From Anoxybacter fermentans (GTDB lineage Bacteria; Bacillota; Halanaerobiia; DY22613): 64,000 nucleotides of DNA. The position numbers and the translations under genes are program-made. The number at the start of each line of letters is the position of its first letter. Positions within the stretch are counted from its first letter, which is position 1. The DNA is taken from the NCBI RefSeq assembly GCF_003991135.1, contig NZ_CP016379.1, positions 1,240,001 through 1,304,000 of the forward strand, read 5' to 3'. Of the stretch, positions 4,048 through 61,551 are shown piece after piece. The notes beneath the pieces were generated by a model. That model had not been told where the DNA came from. It ran no database searches and saw only the letters and a list, made by a program, of their open reading frames with translations.

Positions 4048-4061
4048 ACAAATCCAAATAA

Positions 4062-4198
4062 TGATTAAACTGCAAAAAGTCAATTTTAAGTGCAATAGAA
4101 ATTTTTTGTTTAACCATCTTAATGAGATTTCAGTCGAACTTTAGATGGTTCGAAAAATTTCTTTTAAAGCGAAAAATTAGCTTTTTACAGTAAAATCA
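4062..4198. repeat. Palindromic intergenic repeat, short form (copy 1)
   Basis: Starts TGATTAAACTGCAAAAAG and ends with its near-inverse (CTTTTTACAGTAAAATCA). About 137 bp, folding on itself over nearly its whole length. The left arm is of the B type (AAGTGCAATAGAAATTT), the right arm of the A type. It ends 18 bp before the stop codon of the CdaR-like gene, that is, immediately 3' of that gene. Confidence 0.85.
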
Positions 4199-14002: not shown

Positions 14003-14032
14003 AGAGGAGCATAGAAAACTCTATGCTCCTCT
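14003..14032 (-). terminator. Riboswitch expression-platform terminator
   Basis: Perfect 12-bp stem AGAGGAGCATAG / CTATGCTCCTCT with a 6-nt loop directly 3' of the second aptamer, followed on the minus strand by TTTCTGTTAAT. It lies between the aptamers and the gcvT ribosome site, as in other glycine riboswitches, where bound glycine prevents termination. Confidence 0.8.
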
Positions 14033-14035
14033 GTC

Positions 14036-14216
14036 TATACCTGAGAGATTGGACCCGCTATAAATTAAAACGAGTCTTGCCCCTTCGGCGTTTTTCCATA
14101 CGGAAAAACTTTTCCAGAGTATCCGTCCAGATGCAGTCCTGGTGCCTGAGAGTTTCGCTATGATTTCATAGCTTGCTCCTTCGGCTTTCCTTATAAAAGG
14201 AAATCTCCTGCATCCT
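14036..14216 (-). promoter_or_regulatory. Tandem glycine riboswitch
   Basis: Two successive aptamers can be read on the minus strand. The first holds GCCGAAGGAGCAA and later ACTCTCAGGCACCAGGAC, the second GCCGAAGGGGCAA and later ATCTCTCAGGTATAGAC. These are the conserved core sequences of the glycine (gcvT) riboswitch. GGATGCA near 14215 can pair with TGCATC just after aptamer 1 to form its closing stem. The arrangement of two aptamers with a linker and a terminator before gcvT is the classic form and should turn on the operon when glycine is high. An open frame across this element is a by-product. Confidence 0.95.
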
Positions 14217-14320
14217 TCATCCAGATAACGATATTCACTTTTCAAAATAACACCGTTTATATACATTTTATTACAACATAAATTAAAAAATTCCTGCAAA
14301 TCTTTATAAAAAAACATAAT

Positions 14321-14368
14321 TGATTTTACTGCGAAAAGCTAATTTTTCGCTTTATGAAGAAATTTTTT
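14321..14368. repeat. Half copy of the palindromic intergenic repeat
   Basis: TGATTTTACTGCGAAAAGC followed by AATTTTTCGCTTTATGAAG and GAAATTTTT matches one A-type arm of the repeat family. The rest of the palindrome is absent, so this is a solo arm or a deletion remnant. Confidence 0.7.
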
Positions 14369-14505: not shown

Positions 14506-17500
14506 TCAAGGTCCCCAAACTGGGTAGCTATCATCTGTTAAGTTATATGTTACCTGCCATTCATTTAAACCATCTTTATCCATTACAAAGATTTCATATT
14601 CTCCATCACGATCAGATACAAAAGCAATCATTGTTCCATCTATAGACCATACAGGATCTAAGTCGCTTGCGGCACTCTCAGTCAAACGTTTTGCAGATAA
14701 ACCAGCACCATCGATAGAACCAACACTTGAGATTGTGTAAATATCATAGTCACCGCCATCTCGTTTCGAAATAAACGCCAACATGCTACCATCTGGAGAC
14801 CAGGAAGGACTTCTGTCATCTGCAATATTAGTTGTTACCTGGACGATATTCCAACTACTATATGGATCTGCTGAACCATTAAATTCAATTGCCCAGATAT
14901 CCCCATTAGCTTCAAAGACGATTTTAGTACCATCCGGAGACCACTTAGGATTGGCACAAACACCATCAACGACAGTACCACCTGTCAATGATATATTATT
15001 GGAACCATCAGCTTTTATCTTCCAAATATTGCCTTGACTTACATAGGCAATATAGCTTCCTTCAGGAGACCATGTTGGTGCTTCATCATCATAATCATTA
15101 AGCGTCAGACGTAAAAGAGAAGTTCCATCTTCATTCATTACATATATATCATCATTACCTTCCTGATCAGAAACAAAGGCAATTTTATCTCCACCTGGAG
15201 CCCATACAGGACTTTTTTCATTAGCATAATCGGAGGTCAAGCGTGTTAGATTACTTCCATCAGCATCTACTACATAAATGTTACTATTACCTTCACTTGT
15301 ATCATAAGCTTCAAACAAAATTTTTGACTTATATGGATGCCATTGTGGTTTCTCTTCAATTAAATTAGTATTATTTGTTAGTCTTACTAAAATATTATTG
15401 GCATCCAGGTAATAAATTTCACCATTACTGCTATCCTGCAAAGATATAAAAGTGAGTTTATTTGGTAAATTGAGACTGGTAAATACTGCAGTAACAGTTA
15501 TATCACTATTCATTGTAACAGTCTCTGGATTTGTTGTAGATGTATCTATAGGACCACCTTCCCAATGATCAAAGAACCATCCTGCTGCAGGTTTAGCAGT
15601 TAAAGTTACATCAGTTCCTTCCTCATAGGTAGTTTGATCAGGATTCTTTTCTACTGTACCTTGGCCTGAAATATTAACTGTTAAAGTATATTGCGGTTTT
15701 ATAATGGAGAAAGTAGCTGATAAATCAGAAACCGGGCCATTTTCATTTCCAGTTGGATCTACAACTGGTTTTAATTCATAAGTTCCCACAGCAAAACTAC
15801 TACCATCAACCGTTTTCTGAACAGTTATCTCAGCACCAACAGCAAGTCCCCCACTGACAGTATCATCAAGACCCAATTCACCAATTAAAGATCCATTCTG
15901 ATAAATATCCCAGCTTATATCAAAGGAACCTGCATCCTTATTTCCATTATTCTTTACTGTAATTGATGCAGTAGCTGTGTCATCCTGCTCGACTGTGGTA
16001 GCTGAAATTGATAGATCAATTATTTCCAATTTGGCACCATAGACATTAATTGTGATCGTTTCACTATCACTTTGACCATTCGCTTCAGCAGTAAATGTTA
16101 CAGTATAACTACCTAAATCATCTATTGTTGGAGTCCAACTAAAGCTTCCTGTACTGGTATCAAAAGTAGCTCCCTGTGGCAAACCTGCAGCACTATAAGT
16201 GACCGGATCACCATCAGGATCATTGGCTGTTACCGTAAAAGATAATCCCTGACCTGCATCAACTGTTTTATCACCTATAGTACTGAGAACAGGCGGACGA
16301 TCAACATTATTTACTGTTATAGTTATGGTCTCACTATCAGTATTACCTTTACCATCACTAACTTTAAAGGTTATAGTATATGTTCCTGCGTCATCATAAG
16401 TTGGTATCCAACTAAATGTTTGAGTAGCAGGATCAAACTTATCAGTAACTTTTGAATCACCACTAACACTATAAGTCAATAGATCCTGATCTAAATCAGT
16501 AGCTGTAACAGTAAAAGTTAATTCTTCATTTTCATTAACTGACTTATCACCTATTGGATCAAGGACAGGTGGAAATTCAACATCATTGACTACAATGGTA
16601 ATTATCTCACTATCACTTTTCGTATTGGATGTGGCAGTAAAGGTTGCAGTATAAGTACCAATATCATCTATTGTCGGAGTCCAGCTAAATTCTCCGGTTT
16701 GACTATTTATAGTTGCTCCAGACGGTAAACCACTGACACTATAGGTGATAGGATCACCATCGGGATCACTGGCTGTAACTATAAAACTTAATTCACTATA
16801 CTCATCAACAGATTTGTCACCTATAGGATCAAGGACAGGTGGATGGTCAACGATTACAGTGATAGTTATGGTTTCACTATCAGTATTCCCTTTATTGTCT
16901 CTTACTTCAAAGGTTATAGTATAAGTTCCTTCATCATTATAAGTTGGTATCCAACTGAATGTTTGAGTAGCAGGATCAAACTTATCAGTAACTTTTGAAT
17001 CACCACTAACACTATAAGTCAATGGATCCTGATCTAAATCAGTAGCTGTAACGGTAAAAGTTAATTCTTCATTCTCATAAGCTGTCTTATCACCTATAGG
17101 ATCAAGGACTGGAGCAAATTCAACATCTTTTACTTCAATGGTAATTGTTTCACTATCCTCTGCACCATTAGATGCTGCAGTAAAGGTTGCAGTATAAGTA
17201 CCAATATCATCTATTGTCGGAGTCCAGCTAAATTCTCCGGTTTGACTATTTATAGTTGCTCCAGACGGTAAACCACTGACACTATAAGTGATAGGCTCAT
17301 TATCAGGATCATTAGCTGTTACTACAAAACTTAACTCACTATACTCATCAACGGTTTTATTACCTATAGGGTTAAGAACAGGTGGACGATCAACATTGTT
17401 TACCGTAATAGTTATTGTCTCGCTTGTACTTAATTCACTACCAGTAACAGTAAAGGTAATTGTATAAGTTCCTGCATCAAAATATCCCGTAGTCCAATTG

Positions 17501-19530
17501 AAAGTCTGAGTATCAGGATCAAACTTATCAACCAGGTCACCGACTGCAGTATATGTCAGTCCATCACCATCTGGATCAGTTGCAGATATAGTGAAAGATA
17601 ATGTTTCGGTTTCATTAATTGTTTTGTCTCCAATCGGTTGCAAAATCGGAGCCCGGTCAACATTATTTACTGTAATTGTTATTGTTTTTTCAATATCTAT
17701 CTGACCATCGCTTACATTAACGGTCAAAGTATAAGATCCAGCATCATCATAAGTTGGTGTCCAATCGAATGTTAAATTACCAAGATCAACCTTATCCTTA
17801 AGATCGCCACTGACATTATATGTTAATTCTTCACCATCTGGATCAGTTGCTGCTATACTGAAAGTCAATCTTTCATTTTCATTAACCGTTTTATCCTCAA
17901 GTAAATCAAATTCAGGAGGTCTATTAACATTAATTACTGTAATAGTTATTGTTTCACTAACCTCTACATTACCATCACTAACGGTAAAAGTCATAGTATA
18001 AGATCCAGCATCATCATAAGTTGGTGTCCAGCTAAAAGTTTGAGTATTTACATCAAATTTATCGGTCAAATCACCACTAACACTGAATGTTAGATCATCA
18101 TTATCAGGATCAGAAGCATATACAGTAAAAGTTAATTCTTCTGCTTCTTTAACAGTTTTGTCCCCTATAGTAGCAATTACTGGAGGTTCATTTTTATTAT
18201 ATTTATAGAGGACAGTAACTCCACGATTGATCAATGTCTGGATTACTGAGTCAATAGCCAAATTAAGACCTTCATTACCCATTAAGGTAACTTCCTTTAA
18301 ATTAATCAGTTCAAGTAAAACACTTATATCGGTAATTTGATTATTATGTAGATATAGTTTTTCTAAATTAGTTAAATTTGCCAAACCACTTATATCCTTA
18401 ATCTGATTATCACTTAGATCCAATTCTTTTAATGAAGTTAACCTGCTCAAATCACTAATATTAATTATTGAATTATTACTGAGATTAAGTTTTTCTAATG
18501 ATATCAAAGTAGTCAGAGGAAGAAGATTATTGATTTGATTATTACTCAAATCAAGTTCCTTCAAATTATCATACTGCCAGACCAGTTCCGTAATATCACT
18601 AATCTGATTATTACTTAAATTAAGTTTCTCTAAATTTTTTAATTTATCCAAAGCACTAATGCTGGTAATCTGATTTCCACAAAGATCAAGTTCTTTTAAA
18701 TTTGTTAACAGAGATAAAGCACTTATATCACTTATATTGTTATTATTGAGCATCAGTTTCTCTAAAGTTGTAAGTTTGGATAATTTTTGAATGTCACTAA
18801 TCAAGTTCCCACCAAGGTTTAGAACTGTTAGACTTTTACCTGCAAGCCAGACCAGATCATCAACATTATTAATCTGATTATTACTAAGATTAACCTCTTG
18901 TAAATTTTTCAGATTCGATAAAACAGTTATATCTTTTATCTCATTATAACTAAGGTAAAGATACTTCAAATTTGTTAATCCAGACAGATTAGAAATGTCA
19001 CTAATACCAGTTCTACTGAGATTTAACCGGGTTAAAGCAGTTAAATTTTCTATTCCTTTTAATGACTTAATCTCCATAACAGAAGCATCAAGTGAATCTA
19101 ATCCTTTAACATCCTCTTTTGTAATAGATCCAACAGGCTTATTAATTGCTTTCCGTACGGCTTTTTCAAGATTAGAATCCTCAAAAACAATTATTTCAGT
19201 AACATATTCTTGATTTTTACCTGTAAAATTTACATTATTATCATCTTTAGATACAACCCGTTTGATAGGTTCAAAAACCCATCCCTGTTTGGATGGAGTA
19301 ATGGTCACAGTACCCTTTAATCCAGATAATTTCCAATAACCGGAGTTATCTGTCTTGGTTCTAGCATTAGTTTCCCCAGATGCTGTTATAGTAACATCTG
19401 AAATACCTTCTCCACTCTGATCTATAATTTTACCTGAAACTGTATAAGAACGTTTTATAAAACACCCATTTAATAATAAAGCCAATCCGATAATCAAAAT
19501 ATAAAATGCTAAAAATCTCCTCTTAAACAA
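14506..19530 (-). CDS. Giant multidomain surface lipoprotein: LRR, eight Ig-like repeats, CARDB, InlB repeat, WD40-like propeller
   Basis: About 1674 residues, beginning most likely at TTG 19530 because GGAGG lies 8 nt before it and overlaps the alternative GTG. A hydrophobic signal ends in the lipobox LLNGC (Cys about 23), so the protein is exported and lipid-anchored. Domains in order: a carboxypeptidase-regulatory-like beta fold (about 30-105), an internalin-type LRR block (about 110-445), eight Ig/cadherin-like modules each starting PPVLDPIGDK or similar (about 450-1200), a CARDB-like domain, an InlB-type repeat (YTLTVNISGQGTVEKNPDQ) and about six PD40/TolB-like blades (NIYVVDADGSNLTRLTSD) at the C-terminus. 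Likely role is binding or adhesion; the ligand is unknown. It lies 26 bp downstream of a shorter LRR lipoprotein with the same LRR cap. Confidence 0.85.
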   Translation of the reverse strand: MFKRRFLAFYILIIGLALLLNGCFIKRSYTVSGKIIDQSGEGISDVTITASGETNARTKTDNSGYWKLSGLKGTVTITPSKQGWVFEPIKRVVSKDDNNVNFTGKNQEYVTEIIVFEDSNLEKAVRKAINKPVGSITKEDVKGLDSLDASVMEIKSLKGIENLTALTRLNLSRTGISDISNLSGLTNLKYLYLSYNEIKDITVLSNLKNLQEVNLSNNQINNVDDLVWLAGKSLTVLNLGGNLISDIQKLSKLTTLEKLMLNNNNISDISALSLLTNLKELDLCGNQITSISALDKLKNLEKLNLSNNQISDITELVWQYDNLKELDLSNNQINNLLPLTTLISLEKLNLSNNSIINISDLSRLTSLKELDLSDNQIKDISGLANLTNLEKLYLHNNQITDISVLLELINLKEVTLMGNEGLNLAIDSVIQTLINRGVTVLYKYNKNEPPVIATIGDKTVKEAEELTFTVYASDPDNDDLTFSVSGDLTDKFDVNTQTFSWTPTYDDAGSYTMTFTVSDGNVEVSETITITVINVNRPPEFDLLEDKTVNENERLTFSIAATDPDGEELTYNVSGDLKDKVDLGNLTFDWTPTYDDAGSYTLTVNVSDGQIDIEKTITITVNNVDRAPILQPIGDKTINETETLSFTISATDPDGDGLTYTAVGDLVDKFDPDTQTFNWTTGYFDAGTYTITFTVTGSELSTSETITITVNNVDRPPVLNPIGNKTVDEYSELSFVVTANDPDNEPITYSVSGLPSGATINSQTGEFSWTPTIDDIGTYTATFTAASNGAEDSETITIEVKDVEFAPVLDPIGDKTAYENEELTFTVTATDLDQDPLTYSVSGDSKVTDKFDPATQTFSWIPTYNDEGTYTITFEVRDNKGNTDSETITITVIVDHPPVLDPIGDKSVDEYSELSFIVTASDPDGDPITYSVSGLPSGATINSQTGEFSWTPTIDDIGTYTATFTATSNTKSDSEIITIVVNDVEFPPVLDPIGDKSVNENEELTFTVTATDLDQDLLTYSVSGDSKVTDKFDPATQTFSWIPTYDDAGTYTITFKVSDGKGNTDSETITITVNNVDRPPVLSTIGDKTVDAGQGLSFTVTANDPDGDPVTYSAAGLPQGATFDTSTGSFSWTPTIDDLGSYTVTFTAEANGQSDSETITINVYGAKLEIIDLSISATTVEQDDTATASITVKNNGNKDAGSFDISWDIYQNGSLIGELGLDDTVSGGLAVGAEITVQKTVDGSSFAVGTYELKPVVDPTGNENGPVSDLSATFSIIKPQYTLTVNISGQGTVEKNPDQTTYEEGTDVTLTAKPAAGWFFDHWEGGPIDTSTTNPETVTMNSDITVTAVFTSLNLPNKLTFISLQDSSNGEIYYLDANNILVRLTNNTNLIEEKPQWHPYKSKILFEAYDTSEGNSNIYVVDADGSNLTRLTSDYANEKSPVWAPGGDKIAFVSDQEGNDDIYVMNEDGTSLLRLTLNDYDDEAPTWSPEGSYIAYVSQGNIWKIKADGSNNISLTGGTVVDGVCANPKWSPDGTKIVFEANGDIWAIEFNGSADPYSSWNIVQVTTNIADDRSPSWSPDGSMLAFISKRDGGDYDIYTISSVGSIDGAGLSAKRLTESAASDLDPVWSIDGTMIAFVSDRDGEYEIFVMDKDGLNEWQVTYNLTDDSYPVWGP
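16308..17393 (-). repeat. Tandem duplication, 543-bp period, inside the lipoprotein gene
   Basis: Landmark stretches recur exactly 543 bp apart, for example the sequence beginning agtaacttttgaatcacc at 16444 and 16987, and ttgtcggagtccagct at 16671 and 17214. One unit encodes two Ig-like modules (181 residues); modules 4+5 and 6+7 are the two copies. Unit boundaries are approximate. Confidence 0.85.
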
Positions 19531-19556
19531 AACTATCACCTCCTATCAAACCAATA

Positions 19557-21122
19557 TTAACCATCACATAAAACTTTGACCCCTCTTTGCCGTAACGTAT
19601 CAATTACCTGGCTTGCTGGAGACCCTTGTGATAAATCAAGGTTAGGATTGTCCATAATATTAACTATCTGCAGACTACTTAAATCAAGTAAAACATATAT
19701 ATCAATAATTTGATTGCTTTCGAGATATAAATTTTCTAATTTATTTAAATTACTCAAACCATCAATAACCTCAATCACATTATGACTAAGATCTAACTCT
19801 CTTATATTAGTTAATTCACCCAGAACTCCAATATCACGAATTTGATTGTAAGAAAGATTGATTTTTTCCAATTGAGTTAAAACATGTAAAACATTAATAT
19901 CTCCAATCTGATTACCACTGAGATCAATCTCTTTTAAGTTACCATCTCCTAACCAGACCAAACCATCAATATTACTCAACTTATTTTCACTTAGATCAAG
20001 CTTTTCCATGTTTTTTAAGTTAAAATATTCAAAAACACTTATATCATCAATCTGATTACCACTGAGATCAAGTTCTATTAAATTCGTTAAGTCCGATAAA
20101 TCTCTAATATCATTTATCTGATTATCGGAAAGTGTAAGTTTATTTAAAGCAGTCAATCCAGACAAAACTGAAATATCAGTTATAAGATTACCTGCCAGGT
20201 TTAACTCAGTTAAATTTTTTAATTTCAAAGAGGTAATATCGCTAATCAGATTATTACTCAAATCAAGCTGCTCTAAGTTTATTAAATTAGCTAATGGACT
20301 AATATTACTAATTGAGTTAGATCTTAAGTCAAGATAAACTAAATTGCTCAATTCAGCTAAATAACTGATGTCAGAGATATTGTTGTCAGATAAATCTAAC
20401 CAGGTCAAAGATGTTAAATATTCAATTCCTTCCAGAGAATCTATTGATATATATGATGCATCAAGAGAATATAAATCTTTTACATCTTCTGGCATAATTG
20501 GGCCAGTTGGCTTATTAATTGCATCTCGAACTGCTCGCTCAAGATTAGGATCAGCAAATTTTATCCCTGTTATCGCAATCTCTTCAACAAATATAGCTTT
20601 AACTTCTTTATTTCCATCCATATAAATTGTAGTTGGATTTTTTTCTTTTTCAGTTACATCTCCATCCCAGCGATCAAAAATCCAGTTATCTGCTGGTTGA
20701 GCAGTTAATGTCACTTTTGTTCCTATTTTATAATTTTCACCTTCAGGATCTACAGTAACTGTACCTTCCCCAATAGTATCAATATTCAGTATAAAGGTAG
20801 CATCTTCATCAATCTCAAATACAGCAATAACATTATTATTTTTATCTACAGTGATATTAACCGGATTTGTACTTCCAGTTATATCTCCCTTCCAACTTTT
20901 AAATTTCCAGCCTTCCTCAGGTATTGCATTTAAAGTTACTTTAGTTCCCTTTTCATAAAGTGATTGATCTGGATTTTTCGTAACTTTTCCCTTACCCTCT
21001 GCAGCTATATTTACTTTAAAAAAACGCATAAGTTCATTAAATTCATTCGTAGATGAACAACCAGCTAAAATCCCTACCATAATGAAAAAGAGTACAATAC
21101 CTATTACTTTCTTTTTATTCAT
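19557..21122 (-). CDS. LRR lipoprotein with InlB-type repeats
   Basis: 521 residues. The signal peptide MNKKKVIGIVLFFIMVG ends in the lipobox LAGCSS (Cys about 22). Two InlB-type beta repeats follow (about 35-185: VNIAAEGKGKVTKNPDQSLY and LNIDTIGEGTVTVDPEG), then an internalin-like LRR domain of about 13 repeats built on the pattern NLxxLDLSxNxIxDI. The LRR cap FADPNLERAVRDAINKP is closely similar to that of the larger downstream lipoprotein, so the two are paralogues in one operon, 26 bp apart. Such proteins usually bind other proteins or polysaccharides at the cell surface. No catalytic domain is seen. Confidence 0.85.
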   Translation of the reverse strand: MNKKKVIGIVLFFIMVGILAGCSSTNEFNELMRFFKVNIAAEGKGKVTKNPDQSLYEKGTKVTLNAIPEEGWKFKSWKGDITGSTNPVNITVDKNNNVIAVFEIDEDATFILNIDTIGEGTVTVDPEGENYKIGTKVTLTAQPADNWIFDRWDGDVTEKEKNPTTIYMDGNKEVKAIFVEEIAITGIKFADPNLERAVRDAINKPTGPIMPEDVKDLYSLDASYISIDSLEGIEYLTSLTWLDLSDNNISDISYLAELSNLVYLDLRSNSISNISPLANLINLEQLDLSNNLISDITSLKLKNLTELNLAGNLITDISVLSGLTALNKLTLSDNQINDIRDLSDLTNLIELDLSGNQIDDISVFEYFNLKNMEKLDLSENKLSNIDGLVWLGDGNLKEIDLSGNQIGDINVLHVLTQLEKINLSYNQIRDIGVLGELTNIRELDLSHNVIEVIDGLSNLNKLENLYLESNQIIDIYVLLDLSSLQIVNIMDNPNLDLSQGSPASQVIDTLRQRGVKVLCDG

Positions 21123-22948: not shown

Positions 22949-23162
22949 TTACAAAAAGCTAATTTTTCGCTTCTTGAGAAATTTTTCGAATCATCTAAAG
23001 CTCGATTTACGCCGAAATAAGGCTTCCTAATCAAAGAGCCCTTCTGACTCTTAGAACTAGCTCATCACATCCTGTGATGAGGCCTTATTTCGTCGGAAAT
23101 CTCGCAAAGATTTGACGAAAAATTTCTATATCACTCAAAATTAGCTTTTTGCAGTATAATCA
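22949..23162. repeat. Palindromic intergenic repeat, long form (copy 2)
   Basis: Ends ACAAAAAGCTAATTTTTCGC and GCAGTATAATCA. A-type left arm, B-type right arm, with the two apical hairpins of the long form (CCTAATCAAAGAGCCC and CTCATCACATCCTGTGATGAG, the second written in part). It is embedded between two copies of a different repeat. Confidence 0.85.
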
Positions 23163-23242
23163 TATTTAGTTTTTCTACTTTCTAAAGCTGAGTACCAGTG
23201 TGCGAGCAAGTCTCTAAAAAAGAAGGACTTATCAACAATCTC
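23162..23242. repeat. Second repeat type, copy 2
   Basis: ATATTTAGTTTTTCT, CAGTGTGCGAGCAAGTCTCT and CTTATCAACAATCTCA repeat the block order of 22861-22925 with an 18-bp insertion after the first block. It abuts the palindromic repeat directly. Confidence 0.5.
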
Positions 23243-24427: not shown

Positions 24428-24540
24428 TTTATCTCATACTCCCTTTCCAAAATGTTAACTTTCCGGTCATTATTTTTATCTTTTTGTTTCTAAGTTCCAT
24501 TTATAAGTCAAAAAATCCTTCTTAAAATTTTAAATAAATA

Positions 24541-24726
24541 TGATTAAACTGCAAAAAGCTAATTTTTCGCTTTATAAAGAAATTTTTCGAACCATCTAAA
24601 GTTCGATTTCAATGACTTGCTTAGCTCATCAATCCTCATATGAGGCCATTCTTTTCAATCTCTCACTAAGATGGTTAAACGAAAAATTTCTATAGCGCTC
24701 AAAATTAGCTTTTTGCAGTTTAATCA
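24541..24726. repeat. Palindromic intergenic repeat (copy 3)
   Basis: TGATTAAACTGCAAAAAGC at the left and GCTTTTTGCAGTTTAATCA at the right are exact inverse copies over 19 bp. A-type left and B-type right arm. The apex (CAATGACTTGCTTAGCTCATC onward) is a shortened and diverged version of the long-form hairpins. It ends 11 bp from the permease stop codon. Confidence 0.9.
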
Positions 24727-24737
24727 TTAAAAAGATT

Positions 24738-26253: not shown

Positions 26254-26453
26254 TAATTAAACTGTAAAAAGCTAATTTCTCGCTCCTTGAGAAATTTTTC
26301 GGATCATCTAAAACTCGATTTCCGCCGAAATAAGGCTTCCTGATCAAAGAGCCCTCCTGGCTGATGAGGCCTTATTTCGTCGGAAATCTTGCTAAGATGA
26401 TTTGGCGAAAAATTTCTATGTCGCTTAGAATTAACTTTTTGCAGTATAATCAT
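26254..26453. repeat. Palindromic intergenic repeat, long form (copy 4)
   Basis: TAATTAAACTGTAAAAAGC at the left, CTTTTTGCAGTATAATCA at the right. A-type left, B-type right arm. The inner pair GAAATAAGGCTTCC and GAGGCCTTATTTCGTCGG is intact, but one apical hairpin has been truncated. It ends 2 bp before the stop codon of the M48 peptidase gene. Confidence 0.9.
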
Positions 26454-26455
26454 CA

Positions 26456-27704: not shown

Positions 27705-27790
27705 CTAAACTCAATCTCATAATTTTATTATAAAGTTAATTTTTCAATGTTCAGAAAATTATACATTTTTGCAGGTTGTGGATAACATTA

Positions 27791-27926
27791 TGATTAAACT
27801 GCTCAAAACTAATTTTGAGCATTATTGAAATTTTTCGCCAAACCATCTAAAGTTCTTCAATCTCACTAAGATGGTTTAACGAAAAATTTCTATGGCACTC
27901 AAAATTAGCTTTTTGTAGTTTAATCA
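27791..27926. repeat. Palindromic intergenic repeat, short form (copy 5)
   Basis: TGATTAAACTGCTCAAAAC at the left and TTTTTGTAGTTTAATCA at the right. Both arms resemble the B type (GAGCATTATTGAAATTT and the inverse of GAAATTTCTATGGCACTC). Its last three bases are the TGA stop codon of the yjjW-like gene. Confidence 0.88.
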
Positions 27927-28787
27927 TGTAATATAAATTTCTTCAAATCCATCTTTAACAAAAATCTCTTTAATTTCTTCCATTAATTCACCTTCCGGTT
28001 CCAATAAATTCCGAAACTTAGCCCTAACCCCATGTTTTCGGAAAGGGATCAATCTAATCCTGATATCTCGTCCAATTTTAGCTAAATAATCAGCAGTTGC
28101 ATCAATTTGCTCCCTATCATCATTATATCCGGGAACAATTAACAACCTAACCTCATAAAGCTTCCCTTTATCATACAGATATGGGATGGTAGCTAAAACC
28201 AAGTCATTGGTCTCTCCAGTCAGTTGATAATGAACATCAGGATCAAAAGCTTTTAGATCTATCATTGCTCCATCTAAGACTGGTAGAAGAGTTTCCCAAT
28301 AGGATATAGGAGCTATACCATTACTATCAATAAAATTAGTCAAAGATGAAAGTTTATAATCATTTTTAATACAAGTAAAAAGCTCTTTAACAAAGTCCAA
28401 CTGTTGAGTCGCTTCTCCTCCCGAAACAGTAATGCCTGATATAAATGGGGCAACCCGATGTATCTCTTTTATTACCTCATCAACTTCCATCCAGCGGCTC
28501 CGAGGATTGCTATTTATTGGACAGACTTCAAGGCAGTGGTCACAATTAACGCATCTAGATTCATCGTAATTTATCCATGAGGGGTCACCTGCTATTATTT
28601 CCAGGGCATTAACCGGACATTCTTTAATACATTTTCCGCAAAAATTACAGATTCCAATAGTATGAGGGTTGTGACAATTAATACACTGTAAATTACAGCC
28701 CTGGAGAAATATAACCAGGCGGTTTCCAGGGCCATCGACAGCACTGAAGCGAATAATTCGATTAATGAGTGCCTGGAGTTTGCTCAC
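27924..28787 (-). CDS. yjjW: YjjW-type glycyl radical enzyme activase
   Basis: 287 residues. The radical SAM motif is C31-x3-C35-x2-C38 (GCNLQCINCHNPHTI), followed by a ferredoxin-like insert with CNFCGKCIKECPVN and CVNCDHCLEVCPIN, then VSGGEATQQLDF. This is the layout of PflA-like activating enzymes with extra clusters, and the partner gene identifies it as YjjW. It installs the glycyl radical on YjjI using S-adenosylmethionine. It overlaps yjjI by 26 bp. The stop codon is the terminal TGA of a palindromic repeat. Confidence 0.88.
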   Translation of the reverse strand: MSKLQALINRIIRFSAVDGPGNRLVIFLQGCNLQCINCHNPHTIGICNFCGKCIKECPVNALEIIAGDPSWINYDESRCVNCDHCLEVCPINSNPRSRWMEVDEVIKEIHRVAPFISGITVSGGEATQQLDFVKELFTCIKNDYKLSSLTNFIDSNGIAPISYWETLLPVLDGAMIDLKAFDPDVHYQLTGETNDLVLATIPYLYDKGKLYEVRLLIVPGYNDDREQIDATADYLAKIGRDIRIRLIPFRKHGVRAKFRNLLEPEGELMEEIKEIFVKDGFEEIYIT

Positions 28788-30486: not shown

Positions 30487-30493
30487 ATTATTA

Positions 30494-30718
30494 TAATTAC
30501 ACTGCAAAAAGCTAATTTTAAGCGACATAGAAATTTTTCGCCAAATCATCTTAGCGAGATTTCCGACGAAATAAAGCCTCATCACAGGAGGTGATGAGCT
30601 AATCAAGGGCCAGGATGGCCCTTTGATTAGGAAGCCTTATTTCGTCGGAAATCGAGCTTTAGATGATTCGAAAAATTTCTCAAGAAGTGAAAAATTAGTT
30701 TTTTGCAGTTTAACCTCA
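30494..30718. repeat. Palindromic intergenic repeat, long form (copy 6)
   Basis: Begins TAATTACACTGCAAAAAGC and ends GTTTTTTGCAGTTTAACCTCA. B-type left arm (AAGCGACATAGAAATTT), A-type right arm. Both apical hairpins are complete: CTCATCACAGGAGGTGATGAG, and CTAATCAAGGGCC pairing with GGCCCTTTGATTAG. Confidence 0.9.
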
Positions 30719-41000: not shown

Positions 41001-41048
41001 ATTAATTCACCTCAGGTTTAAAAAAATAGGCTCTCCGTCAAATGTTGT

Positions 41049-42423
41049 GAAAGATAAGTTGGCTCCGTTGAATTGATTGGTAAATTGATTTTGAAATAAA
41101 CATTTAAATTTAATAACTTAACATTGCATTAAATACTCTTCTCCTTAGATTCATAACATTTGGAACACCATATCCAATCCTTTTGATCAATTTAATCTTG
41201 TTATTGATACCCTCAGCAAAGCCATTGGTTATCTTAGTCTTAAAATAATTTAGTATTTTTTCTTCCCATCTTTGTATTATCTTTTTTACCTGGTAAAAAG
41301 GCATCAGCTTGCTTTTTATTACTTCTTTATACCACCTTTTTAGAGCTCTGGTGGCTTCTTTCACATCATCTAGCTGCAATAAGTCTCTGAATTCCTCTTT
41401 TAATTCCCAGGCCTTTTCTAGAGCTGGACTGAGTTCAAATAATTTGATGAGCTTTTCATGTTCTTCATCTGTCAATTCTTCAGCTCGTTTTTGGAGTAAT
41501 AAACGACTTTGAAAAAACTTTCTTCTCTGATGATTATTTACTGTTTGTTGAACTTGTTTTCTAACTTCATCAAGGGCTCTGTTCATTAAAGTTACAAGAT
41601 GAAATTTATCTATAACAATTTTTGCATGAGTAAATGCTGCATCTGCTACTGCTTTGAACGGCCGCCACATATCCATAGAGATCGATTGAATCTGTCGTCT
41701 TTGTTCATCTTCCCAACAATTAAAGTAGTCAATTAAATCATCCTTTTTGCGAGTAGGTAAAATGTCAATTAACTCCCGATTAATTGGATCTGTAATGCTA
41801 ACTCCATATTTATGGCGTTTTAAAACTGCAAATTCATCGATACTGATGGCTTTTAATTGACTAAGTTTTGAAACTTGTTGTTTAATGAGAGGGTCAACTA
41901 CTTTTTTAACTGCATTATTAACAGCTGTATAACTTAACCCGTTTTCTCTAGCAACTTTAGAATAATCCTTGCTGACAGTTTCTTTAGCAAGATATTTATC
42001 AAAGCGTTTGGTTTTACGGGCATATTTATCAATACTTTCATATTTTTCAGGGATACCCCTCTTATGACAATAAGGACAACGATATCTTTTCTTTAGAAGT
42101 CTAATGATTACTAGTTTACCTCTTATGGGGATGTCTCTAATATTTTGCCATTTTGTATCATGGATTTTATTAGTGATATTACCACACTGAGGACACACAA
42201 TGTGATTTTTCTTTGCTTCAGCGATAAAAATATATCTGTCCTCCGTTGAAATAATTTCAGTTGCAATAATGTCTGGCAAATCAAGAAATTTTATGATATT
42301 ATTATATTGCATTTGCTGGACTCCTTTCTTTGGTTTTTAGTTCGCAACTAATTAATTCAACGGAGCCAGCAAATGCCTTTTTATTTTTTATAATTTTTTC
42401 TTCACAACATTAATTATAGACCC
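41049..42423. mobile_element. ISL3-family insertion sequence with 8-bp target duplication
   Basis: 1375 bp. The left end GGCTCTCCGTCAAATGTTG and the inverse of the right end, GGGTCTATAATTAATGTTG, share GG-TCT and AATGTTGTGAA. Both ends also carry GGCTCCGTTGAATT as a subterminal repeat. AAAAAATA flanks the element on both sides (41041-41048 and 42424-42431), a perfect 8-bp duplication of the length typical of ISL3. The element carries one intact transposase. Confidence 0.92.
41110..42312 (-). CDS. ISL3-family transposase
   Basis: 400 residues, full length. N-terminal zinc-binding cysteines (IVCPQCGNITNK and YRCPYCHKRGIP), a helix-turn-helix region and the DDE transposase domain (SIDEFAVLKRHKYGVSIT, SMDMWRPFKAVADAAF, KIVIDKFHLV, and FAEGINNKIKLIKR near the C-terminus) are as in other ISL3 transposases. 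The gene appears intact and the perfect target duplication suggests recent insertion. Confidence 0.93.
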   Translation of the reverse strand: MQYNNIIKFLDLPDIIATEIISTEDRYIFIAEAKKNHIVCPQCGNITNKIHDTKWQNIRDIPIRGKLVIIRLLKKRYRCPYCHKRGIPEKYESIDKYARKTKRFDKYLAKETVSKDYSKVARENGLSYTAVNNAVKKVVDPLIKQQVSKLSQLKAISIDEFAVLKRHKYGVSITDPINRELIDILPTRKKDDLIDYFNCWEDEQRRQIQSISMDMWRPFKAVADAAFTHAKIVIDKFHLVTLMNRALDEVRKQVQQTVNNHQRRKFFQSRLLLQKRAEELTDEEHEKLIKLFELSPALEKAWELKEEFRDLLQLDDVKEATRALKRWYKEVIKSKLMPFYQVKKIIQRWEEKILNYFKTKITNGFAEGINNKIKLIKRIGYGVPNVMNLRRRVFNAMLSY

Positions 42424-42432
42424 AAAAAATAA

Positions 42433-42459
42433 AAAGATCTTTTTAAATTAAAGATCTTT
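42433..42459 (-). terminator. Terminator of the YkvA-like gene
   Basis: AAAGATCTTT occurs twice (42433-42442 and 42450-42459). The two copies pair, and on the minus strand are followed by TTATTTTTT. The ISL3 element begins just past this tract. Confidence 0.7.
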
Positions 42460-45621: not shown

Positions 45622-45665
45622 TACTTAACCAATAAGGGAAGTCTGAAATCAAACTTATTGAAAAA

Positions 45666-45714
45666 GGGGCTGTCCCAAAAGTAATTAATTACTTTTGGGC
45701 ATGGCCCCTTTTTT
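45666..45714. terminator. IS end hairpin acting as bidirectional terminator
   Basis: GGGGC at 45666 pairs with GCCCC near 45708 around the 26-bp perfect palindrome 45674-45699. T6 follows on the plus strand, and A5 precedes it, giving T5 on the minus strand. It can end both the subtilisin and the transposase transcripts. Confidence 0.75.
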
Positions 45715-45779
45715 CATTGTTCATTTCAAATTCATTGAAAATTTTTCTGTTAAGAAAATAAAAACCCATACCTGACATT

Positions 45780-47336
45780 CTATACTGTTGCCAGTTTAGC
45801 CAGGTTATGGGCTATACACAGTAAACCCCATTCAATTTTTACTTTCTCAAGGCCACGAAGCAGAAATCTCCGGAATGACCAATTACCTTTGATCCTTCCA
45901 AAGACAGATTCCGCTTCAATTGCTCTTTGAGAACGGAGTTTCATACCTTTATCGGAACAAAGGTTTTCCTTTACCTTTTGCTTATATTCACGTAATTTAA
46001 AATTTATTCTTATTACTCGATCACCTTTGGCCCTGGTACAATTTTCTTTTAACTCACACCCATCACAATTTTCGCATTTGTAATATCTAATTTGTTTAGT
46101 ATATCCATTTTCAGTCTTAATTTCTTTTGTCTTACAGTAAATGAGTCTTCTTTGAGCAGGACAAATAAACTCGTCGTTTTCTTTATCATACGGCCAGTTT
46201 TCTACTTTAAATATATCATTTTTAAACTTCTTCTTTTGTTCTTTATGAAAAGTATTATACTTAACATAAATATTAGTATTAGCTTTCTCTAAGTAATCAT
46301 AATTTTCCTCACTACCATAACCTGAATCAGCTATCACATTCTCCGGAATCTTACCTGTAACTTCTTTTACTTTTTCTAAATGAGGTATTAAGCATCTTGA
46401 ATCTGCCGGCCTTTGATGAATACTATAACCAACTACAAACTGATTCTCTGTACCTATCTGAACATTATATGCGGGCTTCAATTGCCCATTTTTCATGTGG
46501 TCTTCTTTCATTCTCATAAAAGTTGCATCAGTATCTGTTTTAGAATAACTGTTTCGTCCATTTAAAATCTCTTCCTGTTGCTCATATTTTTTCATTCTGG
46601 GAAGACATTTAGTCTTGAGCTCTTTAATTGTTTTCTTTAACTTCTTGTTTTTGGAGTTCTTTTCTAGACGTTCTTCAAGTTCCTTAATTTTTTCTTCGAG
46701 TTTCTTTGAATCTATTTCTTTTCCTTCACCCATCTCCTCCAGGTCATTATCCCCATACAATCTATTCTCTTCTTCGTTGGTTTTCTCAATCTCTTTTAAA
46801 AGTTCATTAATTTTTGCCCTAAGCCTTGCTTTGTACTTCTTTGTCGCTTTTCTCCAGACAAAGCTATATTTGTTTGCATTAGCTTCTATTTTTGTACCAT
46901 CTAAAAAGTAATTCTCTAACTTTACATATCCTTCTTCTATAAGAAGTTCCAATACTGATGCAAATACCTCATCAATAACATCTTTCATGATCTCTGATCT
47001 GAATCGGTTTATCGTCCGAAAATCAGGTTTATTGTTACCACTAAGCCACATAAAATAAATATTTTCCCGAAGTGCCTTGGCAATTCGTCTTGATGAATAT
47101 ATTCTCTGAGTATAGGCATATACTATAACCTTAAGCATCATTTTCGGATGGTAGCTGCTTCTACCCCCACCTTTATATTTTTCAAGCAGGGGTTCAATAT
47201 TCATCCTTTCTATAGCTGAATTTACCACCCTTACTAAATGATTCTCAGGAATAAACACATCAAAACTCAAAGGCAACATTGTCTGATTCATATTATATTC
47301 AATAAATGTCTTTTTATTATGGTTTTTCCTCTTCAT
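45780..47336 (-). CDS. IS1182-family transposase
   Basis: 518 residues. N-terminal DUF772-type region (YHPKMMLKVIVYAYTQRIYS, SRRIAKALRENIYFMWLSG), then the DDE domain with FLDGTKIEANANKYSFVW, KTDTDATFMRMKEDHMKNGQ, ENVIADSGYGSEENYDYLEK and a C-terminal EAESVFGRIKGNWSFRRF. The gene is complete and open, so the element may still be active. Confidence 0.94.
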   Translation of the reverse strand: MKRKNHNKKTFIEYNMNQTMLPLSFDVFIPENHLVRVVNSAIERMNIEPLLEKYKGGGRSSYHPKMMLKVIVYAYTQRIYSSRRIAKALRENIYFMWLSGNNKPDFRTINRFRSEIMKDVIDEVFASVLELLIEEGYVKLENYFLDGTKIEANANKYSFVWRKATKKYKARLRAKINELLKEIEKTNEEENRLYGDNDLEEMGEGKEIDSKKLEEKIKELEERLEKNSKNKKLKKTIKELKTKCLPRMKKYEQQEEILNGRNSYSKTDTDATFMRMKEDHMKNGQLKPAYNVQIGTENQFVVGYSIHQRPADSRCLIPHLEKVKEVTGKIPENVIADSGYGSEENYDYLEKANTNIYVKYNTFHKEQKKKFKNDIFKVENWPYDKENDEFICPAQRRLIYCKTKEIKTENGYTKQIRYYKCENCDGCELKENCTRAKGDRVIRINFKLREYKQKVKENLCSDKGMKLRSQRAIEAESVFGRIKGNWSFRRFLLRGLEKVKIEWGLLCIAHNLAKLATV

Positions 47337-47357
47337 ATTTATATTTTACCATAAAAA

Positions 47358-47396
47358 AAAGGTGTTGTCTTTATAAAAATTTCTGACAACACCTTT
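47358..47396. terminator. IS-internal hairpin upstream of the transposase
   Basis: AAAGGTGTTGTC / GACAACACCTTT, a perfect 12-bp stem with a 15-nt loop and T- and A-rich flanks, lies between the IS end and the transposase start. It would block transcription entering from the MazG-like gene, a common self-limiting device of insertion sequences. Confidence 0.65.
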
Positions 47397-47419
47397 CTTT
47401 TAATATTTACTTTTGGGGG

Positions 47420-47773
47420 TTATAAAGGGACTTTTGGGACAGCCCCTTTGTTATTTCTACTTTTCACCAACTCTGCCGACCGCCAGTCTCGCTGACTATC
47501 CTTCTTTACCATCTTATCTATTAAAGCTTTTTCTAAATCAATCTCAAATTGATTAGCAAGAGCAATAAGGCAAACCAGAACATCTGCCAACTCTTCTCTC
47601 ATCTTCTCTTTAGAAAATTTCCCATAATTTGGTGACCAGATCCGTTTAAGTTCTGTGGCTACTTCTCCTATCTCTTCATTTAATAATGTAAAGATTTGCA
47701 AAGGATCCATGGTAAAACCTCTTTGACGACGAATTTTAGCTACTAACGCCTGTAGTTCCTTTAAATCTGCCAT
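47420..47773 (-). CDS. MazG-like nucleotide pyrophosphohydrolase, C-terminus rewritten by IS
   Basis: 117 residues. LLNEEIGEVATELKR (metal-binding EExxE) and MREELADVLVCLIALA (ExxD) mark an all-alpha NTP pyrophosphohydrolase, which cleaves non-canonical or excess nucleotides. The last nine residues (KGAVPKVPL) and the stop codon are read from the terminal repeat of the IS1182 element. The original end is lost, but the catalytic helices are intact, so the protein may still work. Confidence 0.85.
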   Translation of the reverse strand: MADLKELQALVAKIRRQRGFTMDPLQIFTLLNEEIGEVATELKRIWSPNYGKFSKEKMREELADVLVCLIALANQFEIDLEKALIDKMVKKDSQRDWRSAELVKSRNNKGAVPKVPL

Positions 47774-51907: not shown

Positions 51908-51984
51908 TTACCTTCCCCTTCCATGATAGACTGTATTTATGGTTAAATATTATGCAAAAGAACTGAAATTCCTGCTTTAATTTA

Positions 51985-52207
51985 TGATTTTACTGCAAAA
52001 AGCTAATTTTGAGCGACATAGAAATTTTTCGCCAAATCATCTTAGCGAGATTTCCAACGAAATAAGGCCTCATTAAAGGATGTGATGAGCTAATCAAGGG
52101 CCAGGAGGGCCCTTTGATTAGGAAGCCTTATTTCGGCAAAAATCGAGCTTTAGATGATTCGAAAAATTTCTCAAGAAGCGAAAAATTAGCTTTTTGCAGT
52201 TTAATCA
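51985..52207. repeat. Palindromic intergenic repeat, long form (copy 7)
   Basis: Begins TGATTTTACTGCAAAAAGC and ends GCTTTTTGCAGTTTAATCA. B-type left arm (GAGCGACATAGAAATTT), A-type right arm (inverse of CGCTTCTTGAGAAATTT). Apical hairpins CTAATCAAGGGCC / GGGCCCTTTGATTAG and GATGTGATGAG. The stop codon TAA of the PEGA gene lies inside the right terminus. Confidence 0.92.
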
Positions 52208-53445
52208 TTTATCCGTTCTAAATAGACCAGGCTATTTTCAGTAGTAATTATCATTGAAGAACTCCCTGGAATAGAGGTTACACCTACCACGAGAGATCCC
52301 ATATCCCTGGCCGTTATAAACTTTCCTGTTTCATCAAATAGATAGAGAAACCCTTGCTCTCCTCCTACCCATAGTTTATTTCTACAATAATCAAGCAAAA
52401 CAATCCTTTCACTAACTTCCTTACTATTAAGAATAGAACCACTTTCAGGCTCAAGAATATATATCTTTTTTCCTGAGGAGATATAAAGGTAATCCTTCAA
52501 AAGAATATTAATAGGTTTTTGAAAACCATTTCTTATAGAATAGATTTCTTTCCCTGTATGAGAAAAAGCATAAAAAACTCCACGCGAGGAGAGAAGATAA
52601 AGAAAATCATCAGTAATAATTCCCTGCTTTGCACCACCGTTGATTGAAAGTTTCAGAGAATACCATTGATCACCTCTCTGATGCCAGAAGGTTCCATCAA
52701 CTGTAAAAAAAGCAGGAGAATTGTCTAAAAAAACAAAACTCTCCGCTAAAATCTCCTCTTCAAACTCCTCTTTTTTAAGAAGCTCTCCCTCCAAAGTATA
52801 TCTGTATATTGTCGACCTATTAGCTAACAGCCAGAGGTTTTTGTCCTTTATCACTAAAGGGGTGACATCTATCCCGAGTTTTCGTTGCCAGAGTATTTTT
52901 CCACTATATCTATTAAAAGCATAAACTGAACCTTGAAAAGTACCCACAATCAAAAACTCCTGAGTTTGTATTACTGGCCTCAGTACAAGCTCATTAAGTA
53001 GATATGACCATACTTTCACTCTGTCAAGCTGAATAGCATCAACCCGTCCCTCTAAATCTACTGAATATACCATCTCCCCCTGCATTTGAGCTGGAATAAC
53101 ATACCGATTAGAACTGGTATGTATGTTAGAGGTAGCCAGAGTCAAGTCTGAAAGATAGACTTCTCTTCTAAATTTGCTATTAGGCTTAAAATCAATAAGA
53201 AGTTCCTCTGATTCAAAGCCTTCCTTTTCAAATCTAAAAGCCCGGAAACCTAAAGGAATGGATGTAATTTTAATAGGAGTCTTACCCATCATTTGGCCAT
53301 CCATATAAACTACTATATTTTCGAGGGGACTGGTAATCATTATCTCCCCTTTAGCATTATTGTAAGCATATAAGGCATAAGCAAATGACCCCACTATAAT
53401 AATTATAAATATAAAAACAGCCAAATGTGAATTTGTTCTATCCAT
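52201..53445 (-). CDS. Membrane-anchored PEGA/PQQ-like beta-propeller protein
   Basis: 414 residues from ATG 53445 (MDRTNSHLAVFIFIIIIVGS), 9 nt after GGGAG. One N-terminal membrane segment; a PEGA domain (about 35-95: ITSPLENIVVYMDGQMMGKT, IPLGFRAFRFEKEGFE); and a PQQ-like propeller with NRYSGKILWQRKLG and YLFDETGKFITARDM. Extracytoplasmic binding or scaffold function is likely; nothing more specific is seen. The last two residues and stop codon (ND-stop) fall at or in the terminal repeat of the palindromic element. Upstream lies the oppABC operon on the same strand, ended by a hairpin. Confidence 0.8.
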   Translation of the reverse strand: MDRTNSHLAVFIFIIIIVGSFAYALYAYNNAKGEIMITSPLENIVVYMDGQMMGKTPIKITSIPLGFRAFRFEKEGFESEELLIDFKPNSKFRREVYLSDLTLATSNIHTSSNRYVIPAQMQGEMVYSVDLEGRVDAIQLDRVKVWSYLLNELVLRPVIQTQEFLIVGTFQGSVYAFNRYSGKILWQRKLGIDVTPLVIKDKNLWLLANRSTIYRYTLEGELLKKEEFEEEILAESFVFLDNSPAFFTVDGTFWHQRGDQWYSLKLSINGGAKQGIITDDFLYLLSSRGVFYAFSHTGKEIYSIRNGFQKPINILLKDYLYISSGKKIYILEPESGSILNSKEVSERIVLLDYCRNKLWVGGEQGFLYLFDETGKFITARDMGSLVVGVTSIPGSSSMIITTENSLVYLERIND

Positions 53446-53473
53446 AACTTTCATCTCCCGTGATAAATAATAC

Positions 53474-60956: not shown

Positions 60957-61093
60957 TGATTAAACTGCAAAAAGCTAATTTTGAGTGCTATTGAAATTTT
61001 TCATTAAACCATCTTAGTGAGATTTCAGTCGAACTTTAGATGGTTCGAAAAATTTCTTTTGAAGTGAAAAATTAACTTTTTGCAGCAAAATCA
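60957..61093. repeat. Palindromic intergenic repeat, short form (copy 8)
   Basis: TGATTAAACTGCAAAAAGC at the left, CTTTTTGCAGCAAAATCA at the right. B-type left arm, A-type right arm. Its middle is nearly the same as that of copy 1 (GAGATTTCAGTCGAACTTTA), a close sister copy 57 kb away. It lies between the divergent hypF and DUF5685 genes. The surrounding 60790-60956 and 61094-61307 show no gene. Confidence 0.9.
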
Positions 61094-61307
61094 CAAAATG
61101 TTTCTTTAATAAATTCGCTGATATGTTTAATTTTTCCTTCTAACCCTTCCAACGATAAATCTCTTTTGATTCTTTAAATTAAAAATCATAATTCCGCAGA
61201 ATAGAAATAAATTTGTTAGAAGTGAGGTATTTTATTAACAAAATCAAAGGAATTTTCTCATAGATGATGAACTTTAATATTAAAAATAAGGAAATTTTTT
61301 ATTATAG

Positions 61308-61526
61308 GTTATACTACAAAAAGCTAATTTTTCACTTCTTGAGAAATTTTTCGAATCATCTAAAGCTCGATTTCCGTCGAAATAAGGCTTCCTAATCAAA
61401 GGGCCCTCCTGGTCCCTTGATTAGCTCATCACCTCCTGTGATGAGACCTTATTTCGTCGGAAATCTCGCAAAGATTTGGCGAAAAATTTCTATGTCACTC
61501 AAAATTAGCTTTTTACAGTATAATCA
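61308..61526. repeat. Palindromic intergenic repeat, long form (copy 9)
   Basis: Begins GGTTATACTACAAAAAGC or close to it and ends TTTTTACAGTATAATCA. A-type left arm (CACTTCTTGAGAAATTT), B-type right arm. Both apical hairpins are complete (CCTAATCAAAGGGCCC with GGTCCCTTGATTAG, and CTCATCACCTCCTGTGATGAG). It ends 25 bp before the DUF5685 start and so occupies the promoter position. Confidence 0.9.
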
Positions 61527-61551
61527 TAAATACGTAAAGAGGTGAAATAAA

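Follow-up and report, generated by a model that had tools for sequence, protein, structure and literature searches.

The window, a 64,000-nt stretch of Anoxybacter fermentans DNA, holds nine copies of a palindromic repeat as detected by nhmmer, and our analysis centers on copy 7 (Table 1). The best nhmmer match of this copy begins at position 51981 and runs in the order B arm then A arm, which agrees with where an earlier note, made by reading the sequence, had located it. The element proper is bracketed by the hexamer ATTTAT on either side, and two hairpins lie between its arms. On the right it meets a minus-strand ORF with matches to a PEGA domain and a beta-propeller; this ORF ends inside the element, which provides its final sense codon and its stop.

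Folded in silico as RNA, the stretch 51980–52212 has an energy of –104.4 kcal/mol (z –11.7). As DNA, the target copy has energies of –65.4 kcal/mol on the plus strand (z –13.4) and –64.1 kcal/mol on the minus strand (z –11.9). In each of these three cases, 0 of 200 shuffled sequences folded as low.

Table 1. Positions, within the 64,000-nt window, of the target copy and its parts, the other copies and further features
Feature	Position	Strand	Remarks
Palindromic element proper (copy 7)	51986–52206	+	B arm first; 221 nt
Left target-site duplication ATTTAT	51980–51985		From sequence and boundary rule
Right target-site duplication ATTTAT	52207–52212		From sequence
B arm	51986–52068	+	GATTNNACTGC end, AAAAAGCTAATTTTGAGCGACATAGAAATTTTT, inner stem strand
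Hairpin 1	52069–52089	+	Family consensus loop AGGAN; stem degenerate in the target copy
Hairpin 2	52090–52121	+	Loop AGGAG at 52103–52107
A arm	52125–52206	+	Terminates in GCAGTNNAATC
Match to RF01731 (TwoAYGGAY), whole model	52019–52172	+	35.4 bits (gathering score 43)
Neighboring ORF	52201–53454	–	Last codon and stop codon (52201–52206) from element end
Copy 1	4061–4198	+	Short form without both hairpins; B then A
Copy 2	22950–23164	–	On plus strand, A then B
Copy 3	24540–24727	–	Form without hairpin 2; A then B
Copy 4	26254–26454	–	Hairpins partly deleted; A then B
Copy 5	27788–27927		B arm at both ends
Copy 6	30492–30715	+	Full; B then A
Copy 8	60957–61093	+	Short form; B then A
Copy 9	61307–61530	–	Full; A then B
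Isolated arm end	14312–14367
Tandem glycine riboswitch aptamers	14027–14220	–
Two adjacent long ORFs	16043–20354		Tandem DNA repeats of ~66 nt and ~270 nt
Multicopy IS, ISL3-type and one with DDE_Tnp_1_6/DUF772 matches	41020–42433 and 45661–47459

The window also carries one isolated arm end besides the nine copies. Copy 5 has B-type ends on both sides and mixed inner parts, which suggests recombination between copies. Other features of the window include tandem glycine riboswitch aptamers and two long ORFs with tandem repeats, the ~66-nt units of which are, at a guess, leucine-rich-repeat-like.

Unlike arms and their internal loops

The earlier note held that the two arms differ in a conserved way and so give each copy an orientation, with the order B/A at copies 1, 6, 7 and 8, A/B at copies 2, 3, 4 and 9, and B/B at copy 5. 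When arm order was taken as the strand of the best match, all nine copies were as described. The polarity extends to the rest of the genome, where, of 75 full copies retrieved and distinct by place, 74 prefer one strand, by 75.4–167.4 bits. These 74 also match the other strand at a lower score, and the 75th matches a single strand only. An exact arm 14-mer occurs 413 + 410 times on the two strands of the 3.56-Mb genome (823 in all), compared to 1 + 0 for the reversed sequence, indicating that the repeat is not due to chance.

A further claim, that defined internal loops distinguish the arms, is supported. In alignment A1, the same B and A loops are seen throughout. A1 has 55 rows and represents 54 copies, one of which (window 30493–30713, L076) enters twice. 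Other genera show a modified form: among 33 distinct foreign copies, the B-arm motif TGAGNRA is confined to the B arm in 13 and to the A arm in 1, occurs in both in 1 and is missing from the other 18. A tandem GA/GA internal loop recurs across genera, as judged by eye. A check proposed in the note, whether bulges are more conserved than stems, came out negative. Mean majority identity over the 54 copies is 0.838 for bulge and loop positions versus 0.949 for paired positions, although individual bulge columns are nearly invariant. Private mutations are about equally frequent at paired and unpaired sites (0.412 and 0.467 per site, respectively), and hence the likeness of the bulges within the A. 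fermentans genome mostly reflects common descent. From this pattern of private mutations, resident copies decay neutrally, and singleton changes (19 G-U versus 19 A-C) show no strand preference.

Mobility, genomic distribution and candidate enzymes

The repeat is a non-autonomous palindromic transposon of the MITE type, about 220 nt long, which inserts into A+T-rich intergenic DNA. Of 70 copies examined for direct repeats, 17 without a clear end were left out, and 26 of the other 53 have exact direct repeats at the boundary GATT..AATC, compared to 0.9 expected from mismatched pairs of flanks. The duplications are rich in A+T, many of them following an AT..AT pattern, with lengths of 6 nt in 14 copies, 7 nt in 11 and 8 nt in 1. 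Joining the flanks of 61 elements and comparing them with the loci fetched from outside a cassette array turned up one clean empty site, in a paralogous stretch in which ATATATT is present once where the site is empty and twice where it is occupied. Shortened subfamilies occur among the copies, and element length ranges from 137 to 229 nt.

To describe the distribution, we used 72 elements, full or shortened, in 464 kb comprising the window and 20 stretches across the genome, a biased sample in that several stretches were placed on known hits. None of the 72 lies wholly within an ORF of at least 90 aa, as defined by a simple ORF caller. Genes on both sides could be assigned for 69 elements. 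Same-direction gaps account for 52 of these, divergent gaps for 9 (4 plus, 5 minus) and convergent gaps for 8; these last are all on the minus strand of the record, which is meaningless relative to genes. In same-direction gaps, 30 elements run with the genes and 22 against them, in line with the earlier statement that orientation relative to the gene varies, and there is no gene-strand preference. Nor is there a replichore or leading/lagging bias outside one array (38:38 and 35:35, with replichores roughly drawn from skew). That array, at ~1.943–1.982 Mb (L135, L136), contains 17 elements, all in one orientation (minus), amid repeated units that match RHS repeats and DUF4225 and are in many cases spaced ~2.1 kb apart. 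These 17 elements were perhaps amplified together with the cassettes. Plasmid and phage collections gave no element match; one viral-contig match appears to be coding sequence rather than an element.

No partner transposase was established among the loci examined. The two abundant IS of the window, ISL3-type and what we take to be IS1182-like (the one with DDE_Tnp_1_6/DUF772 matches), were considered as parents and rejected, as their ends differ from those of the element. Among 30 of the 33 DDE_Tnp_1 loci, six weak free ends (3–4 of 18 bases off) were seen in five loci. The 504 kb of A. fermentans sequence inspected contain two weak free ends. At one locus (L205), two weak free ends face each other 2.6 kb apart; none of the 18 further loci that have this high-scoring transposase match shows such a facing pair.

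A predicted fold in 16 genomes of the class

The predicted fold is a long interrupted stem leading to a junction and two hairpins with AGGAN pentaloops. The reference structure is the minimum-energy fold of one young copy; RNAalifold applied to the 55 rows scrambled the middle, probably due to gap columns. With this structure, 95.7% of A1 cells form standard pairs, compared to 35–50% when the partner is slid.

BLAST matches were found in 7 of 60 relatives, those in two of them (G031 and G050) measuring no more than 36 nt. R1, a covariance model of the core, has matches in 16 of the 59 class genomes, including A. fermentans. With up to 62 candidates scored per genome and weak matches filtered, copy numbers are at least 62 in A. 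fermentans, 54 in G002, 12 in G005, 11 in G003 and 1–7 in twelve others; a genome of the same family (G001) has no R1 match. Both-side changes occur in 28 of 47 core pairs across six genera, amounting to 121 cells versus 41.2 in shuffles (0 of 500 as high). In a set of 28 different foreign cores, representing eight genera, at least three Watson-Crick types are used by 24 of the 47 pairs. The inner stem has 15 variants in hairpin 1 and 17 in hairpin 2, and complementarity persists in most. The outermost repeats also vary between genera yet stay complementary, and thus whatever mobilizes the elements may recognize shape over sequence. Loop 2 retains GGA in 26 of the 28 cores, and loop 1 has GGA or CGA in all 28 (GGA in 17, CGA in 12, with one overlap).

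Two genomes have distinctive forms. In G009, with six matches, the two copies inspected (L119, L134) lack both GGA loops and keep the outer fold. In G002 (L052–L057, L012), the core is embedded in a larger unit, which has ends resembling TAGGAGTTTCCCC and, by eye, ~9-nt direct repeats; this was judged from nine rows, two of which (L012 and L051) are one place. The larger unit may be a composite, similar short ends being nearby.

According to PMC2864571 and PMC6429828, RNA stems tolerate G-U far more than A-C, a property used for strand choice in structured-RNA work. We therefore counted both mismatch types in the element cores and, by the same method, in two control families, 6S RNA and the TPP riboswitch, both of them RNA. 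The cores contain 28 G-U and 21 A-C cells (2.5% and 1.9%; fresh alignment), or 26 versus 19 on the model alignment. For 6S RNA from 30 genomes of the class, the numbers are 162 and 4 (12.0% and 0.3%), and for TPP riboswitches, also from 30 genomes, 30 and 2 (6.2% and 0.4%). Fisher tests of the cores gave P = 4e-12 against 6S RNA and 3e-4 against TPP, values to be read with the caveat that cells are non-independent. In A1, the 54 copies have 136 G-U versus 100 A-C cells, at 51 versus 46 positions, with 19 versus 19 singletons; for all 55 rows, the figures are 138 versus 101, 51 versus 46, and 18 versus 19.

As decay of individual copies adds G-U and A-C equally, we also compared consensus sequences. 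All 89 pairs are Watson-Crick in the consensus of the young subfamily (25 rows from 24 copies); in the older consensus (12 copies) 87 of 88 are, with zero G-U. The two differ at 23 columns, six of which represent three pairs changed on both sides from Watson-Crick to Watson-Crick. Two more differing columns belong to terminal pairs: at 229 a one-sided change leaves the older consensus unpaired, a point against selection on the fold, and 234 is a gap in the older consensus. Strong covariation is usually read as a sign of functional RNA; here it is coupled with little G-U preference. Counting G-U versus A-C is a cheap test that might tell folded-DNA elements apart from RNA genes in collections of the Rfam type.

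Interpretation and related systems

On balance, and with confidence only a little past even, we favor a transposon whose folded DNA is under selection in the source copies, while inserted copies are neutral and the unlike arms provide polarity. We infer that folded DNA is what selection sees. The body is an imperfect palindrome, a single strand of which can form a long stem capped by two GGA-loop hairpins, and nearly every copy has a left (B) and a right (A) end; the selected form would be a single-strand hairpin or a cruciform. The step involved is likely mobilization, in which folding would bring the two ends close to each other and present the loops and asymmetric internal loops to a trans-acting recombinase able to read end identity from them. 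Complementarity has been kept over deep time in source lineages, on both strands alike and with G-U not favored over A-C in the manner of RNA genes, and a copy once inserted has no visibly protected function and decays neutrally.

The element has much in common with bacterial MITEs such as ERIC, Correia/NEMIS, QMITE2, YPAL and CIR, which are short, non-coding, mostly A+T-rich and bounded by inverted repeats and, according to PMC10969869 and PMC2229807, show target duplications and a stable fold. It differs in that its duplications are 6–8 nt and often AT..AT, whereas most families listed in those papers have a TA motif, and in that its three-way-junction fold is conserved across genera while ends and stems change. 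No such fold-conserved case is described in the portions of these two papers that we consulted, a word search of the literature found no MITE tied to ssDNA, a hairpin or a cruciform, and nothing relevant surfaced on MITEs in Halanaerobi- taxa.

An ordinary MITE is an unlikely alternative to selection on folded DNA. Here, the arms would be the same double-stranded transposase-binding sequence, template switching would maintain their likeness, and no fold would be selected. Such a model accounts for the Watson-Crick-only pairing and near-equal G-U and A-C counts, and for the direct repeats and decay as well. It fares less well with the stem variants of the two hairpins described above (15 and 17 in the 28 cores), since binding of a fixed sequence requires none of them; stems that vary freely and remain mostly complementary argue against plain double-stranded binding sites. 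Likewise, persistence of the GGA/CGA loops and of the A/B differences argues against simple arm copying, which would erase them, and the outer arms vary between genera and are complementary still. Another alternative is a cis-acting mRNA element, a terminator or stability element kept for the neighboring gene. That none of the 72 copies lies wholly within an ORF of at least 90 aa fits this idea, but the lack of orientation preference in same-direction gaps and the neutral decay speak against it, and we give it very little credence. Folded single-stranded DNA would also be the natural substrate of REP-associated Y1 (HUH) transposases, and one of three Y1 matches in the genome, the only full-length one, lies between two element copies (L197 1486–1896, 136 aa). 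Both flanking copies, however, have their own direct repeats (one mismatched) and thus represent independent insertions, and we rejected this RAYT/Y1 gene as the mobilizer; its position looks like a coincidence. The protein has HVR where HUH, the catalytic motif of Y1 transposases, is expected. Moreover, the element duplicates its target, and to our knowledge REP and IS200/IS605 elements do not. Nor does the element show the hallmarks of a REP/RAYT system, namely a Y1 gene framed by its own REP copies and no target duplication. Movement as a REP-type sequence is accordingly highly improbable. Integron attC sites and IS200/IS605 hairpins are comparable: they too are imperfect palindromes that function in the form of folded single strands, their asymmetric bulges conferring polarity. 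Unlike the element, to which no active Y1 enzyme is linked, these do not duplicate target DNA as far as we know.

The remaining alternative is a mobile RNA gene, transcribed copies of which would bind and titrate CsrA through the two GGA hairpins. CsrB/RsmY-type RNAs are RNA genes with many sites each. The paired GGA hairpin loops of the element resemble those of CsrA-sequestering RNAs of this type (PMC4383904). The element differs from them in that each of its many copies has two sites and in that its pairing shows little bias of the RNA type. The nearest known family is TwoAYGGAY (RF01731), which has the same long outer stem, junction and two adjacent GGA-loop hairpins, and tandem GA pairs as well (PMC4333381). 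The target copy matches the whole model at 35.4 bits (E value 0.00046), below the gathering score of 43, and another A. fermentans copy exceeds that score at 51.7 bits. PMC2864571 (2010), which first described TwoAYGGAY, lists it as a probable RNA, unlikely to be cis-regulatory, with examples in human gut, Gammaproteobacteria and Clostridiales; CsrA binding has been proposed for it in PMC4333381, and PMC11661157 terms it relatively unexplored. The csrA gene was detected in 43 of 61 genomes (42 above cut-off), among them 15 of the 16 element-bearing genomes (the exception being G043) versus 26 of the other 43 in the class. This association (Fisher P = 0.02, with related genomes and no kinship correction) is suggestive in favor of the CsrA reading. 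The persistence of GGA or CGA in the loops of foreign cores also speaks for it. Certain subsets also lean toward RNA: the foreign rows of alignment A2 have 24 G-U versus 8 A-C, a difference not upheld in the larger set (28 versus 21), and the outer and inner stems of the 28 cores have 20 versus 9. By hairpin, the cores have G-U:A-C counts of 4:0 (hairpin 1) and 2:10 (hairpin 2).

Other data argue against an RNA. The larger set is unlike 6S RNA and TPP in its mismatches, consensus stems are without any G-U, the elements have no preferred orientation to genes, and resident copies are not visibly protected on either strand. The two inspected G009 copies, of six matches, lack both loops. When the RF01731 model was run at E values up to 0.5 on 20 loci, nine of which are further A. 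fermentans copies, it matched the 51.7-bit copy alone; with stricter filters, the Rfam model gave no hit above cut-off in any other of the 61 genomes. In 15 foreign loci there was one match, to a copy from genus g8 (30.4 bits). The A[CT]GGA[CT] loop is found in 4 of the 28 foreign cores, in hairpin 1 only and all from genus g8, while loops in A. fermentans are mostly AGGAN. Elements here further differ from RF01731 in being multicopy and mobile, with target duplication, and in showing little wobble bias of the RNA type; the passages seen of papers that name RF01731 contain no statement of its mobility, and those found for CsrA together with MITEs contain no link between the two. Weighing these points, we consider the CsrA-titrating RNA improbable. 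Counting csrA in every element-bearing genome nevertheless moved our estimate for it upward by a small step. A further point against selection on folded DNA is that the known protein best suited to the GGA loops binds RNA; we can name no DNA-binding protein that suits them as well.

Selection on folded DNA could have a wider counterpart, which we put forward tentatively, as less likely than not. This would be a class-wide type of mobile DNA recognized by its folded shape, a Y-shaped palindrome with two GGA hairpins, freely varying stems and terminal repeats, and internal loops as end labels; TwoAYGGAY, and perhaps Bacillaceae-1, would then be folded-DNA transposons mistaken for RNA genes. If folded DNA is the substrate, the genomes offer many natural variants of one transposon fold as a means of identifying the enzyme. 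Should the element act as RNA instead, its spread has placed candidate sites for a global regulator at many loci. Under either reading, TwoAYGGAY gains a testable identity. As regards Bacillaceae-1, the complementary strand of an element in G003 (L106 1534–1595, minus) gives a weak match to that family, at 27.6 bits (cut-off 35) with an E value of 0.44.
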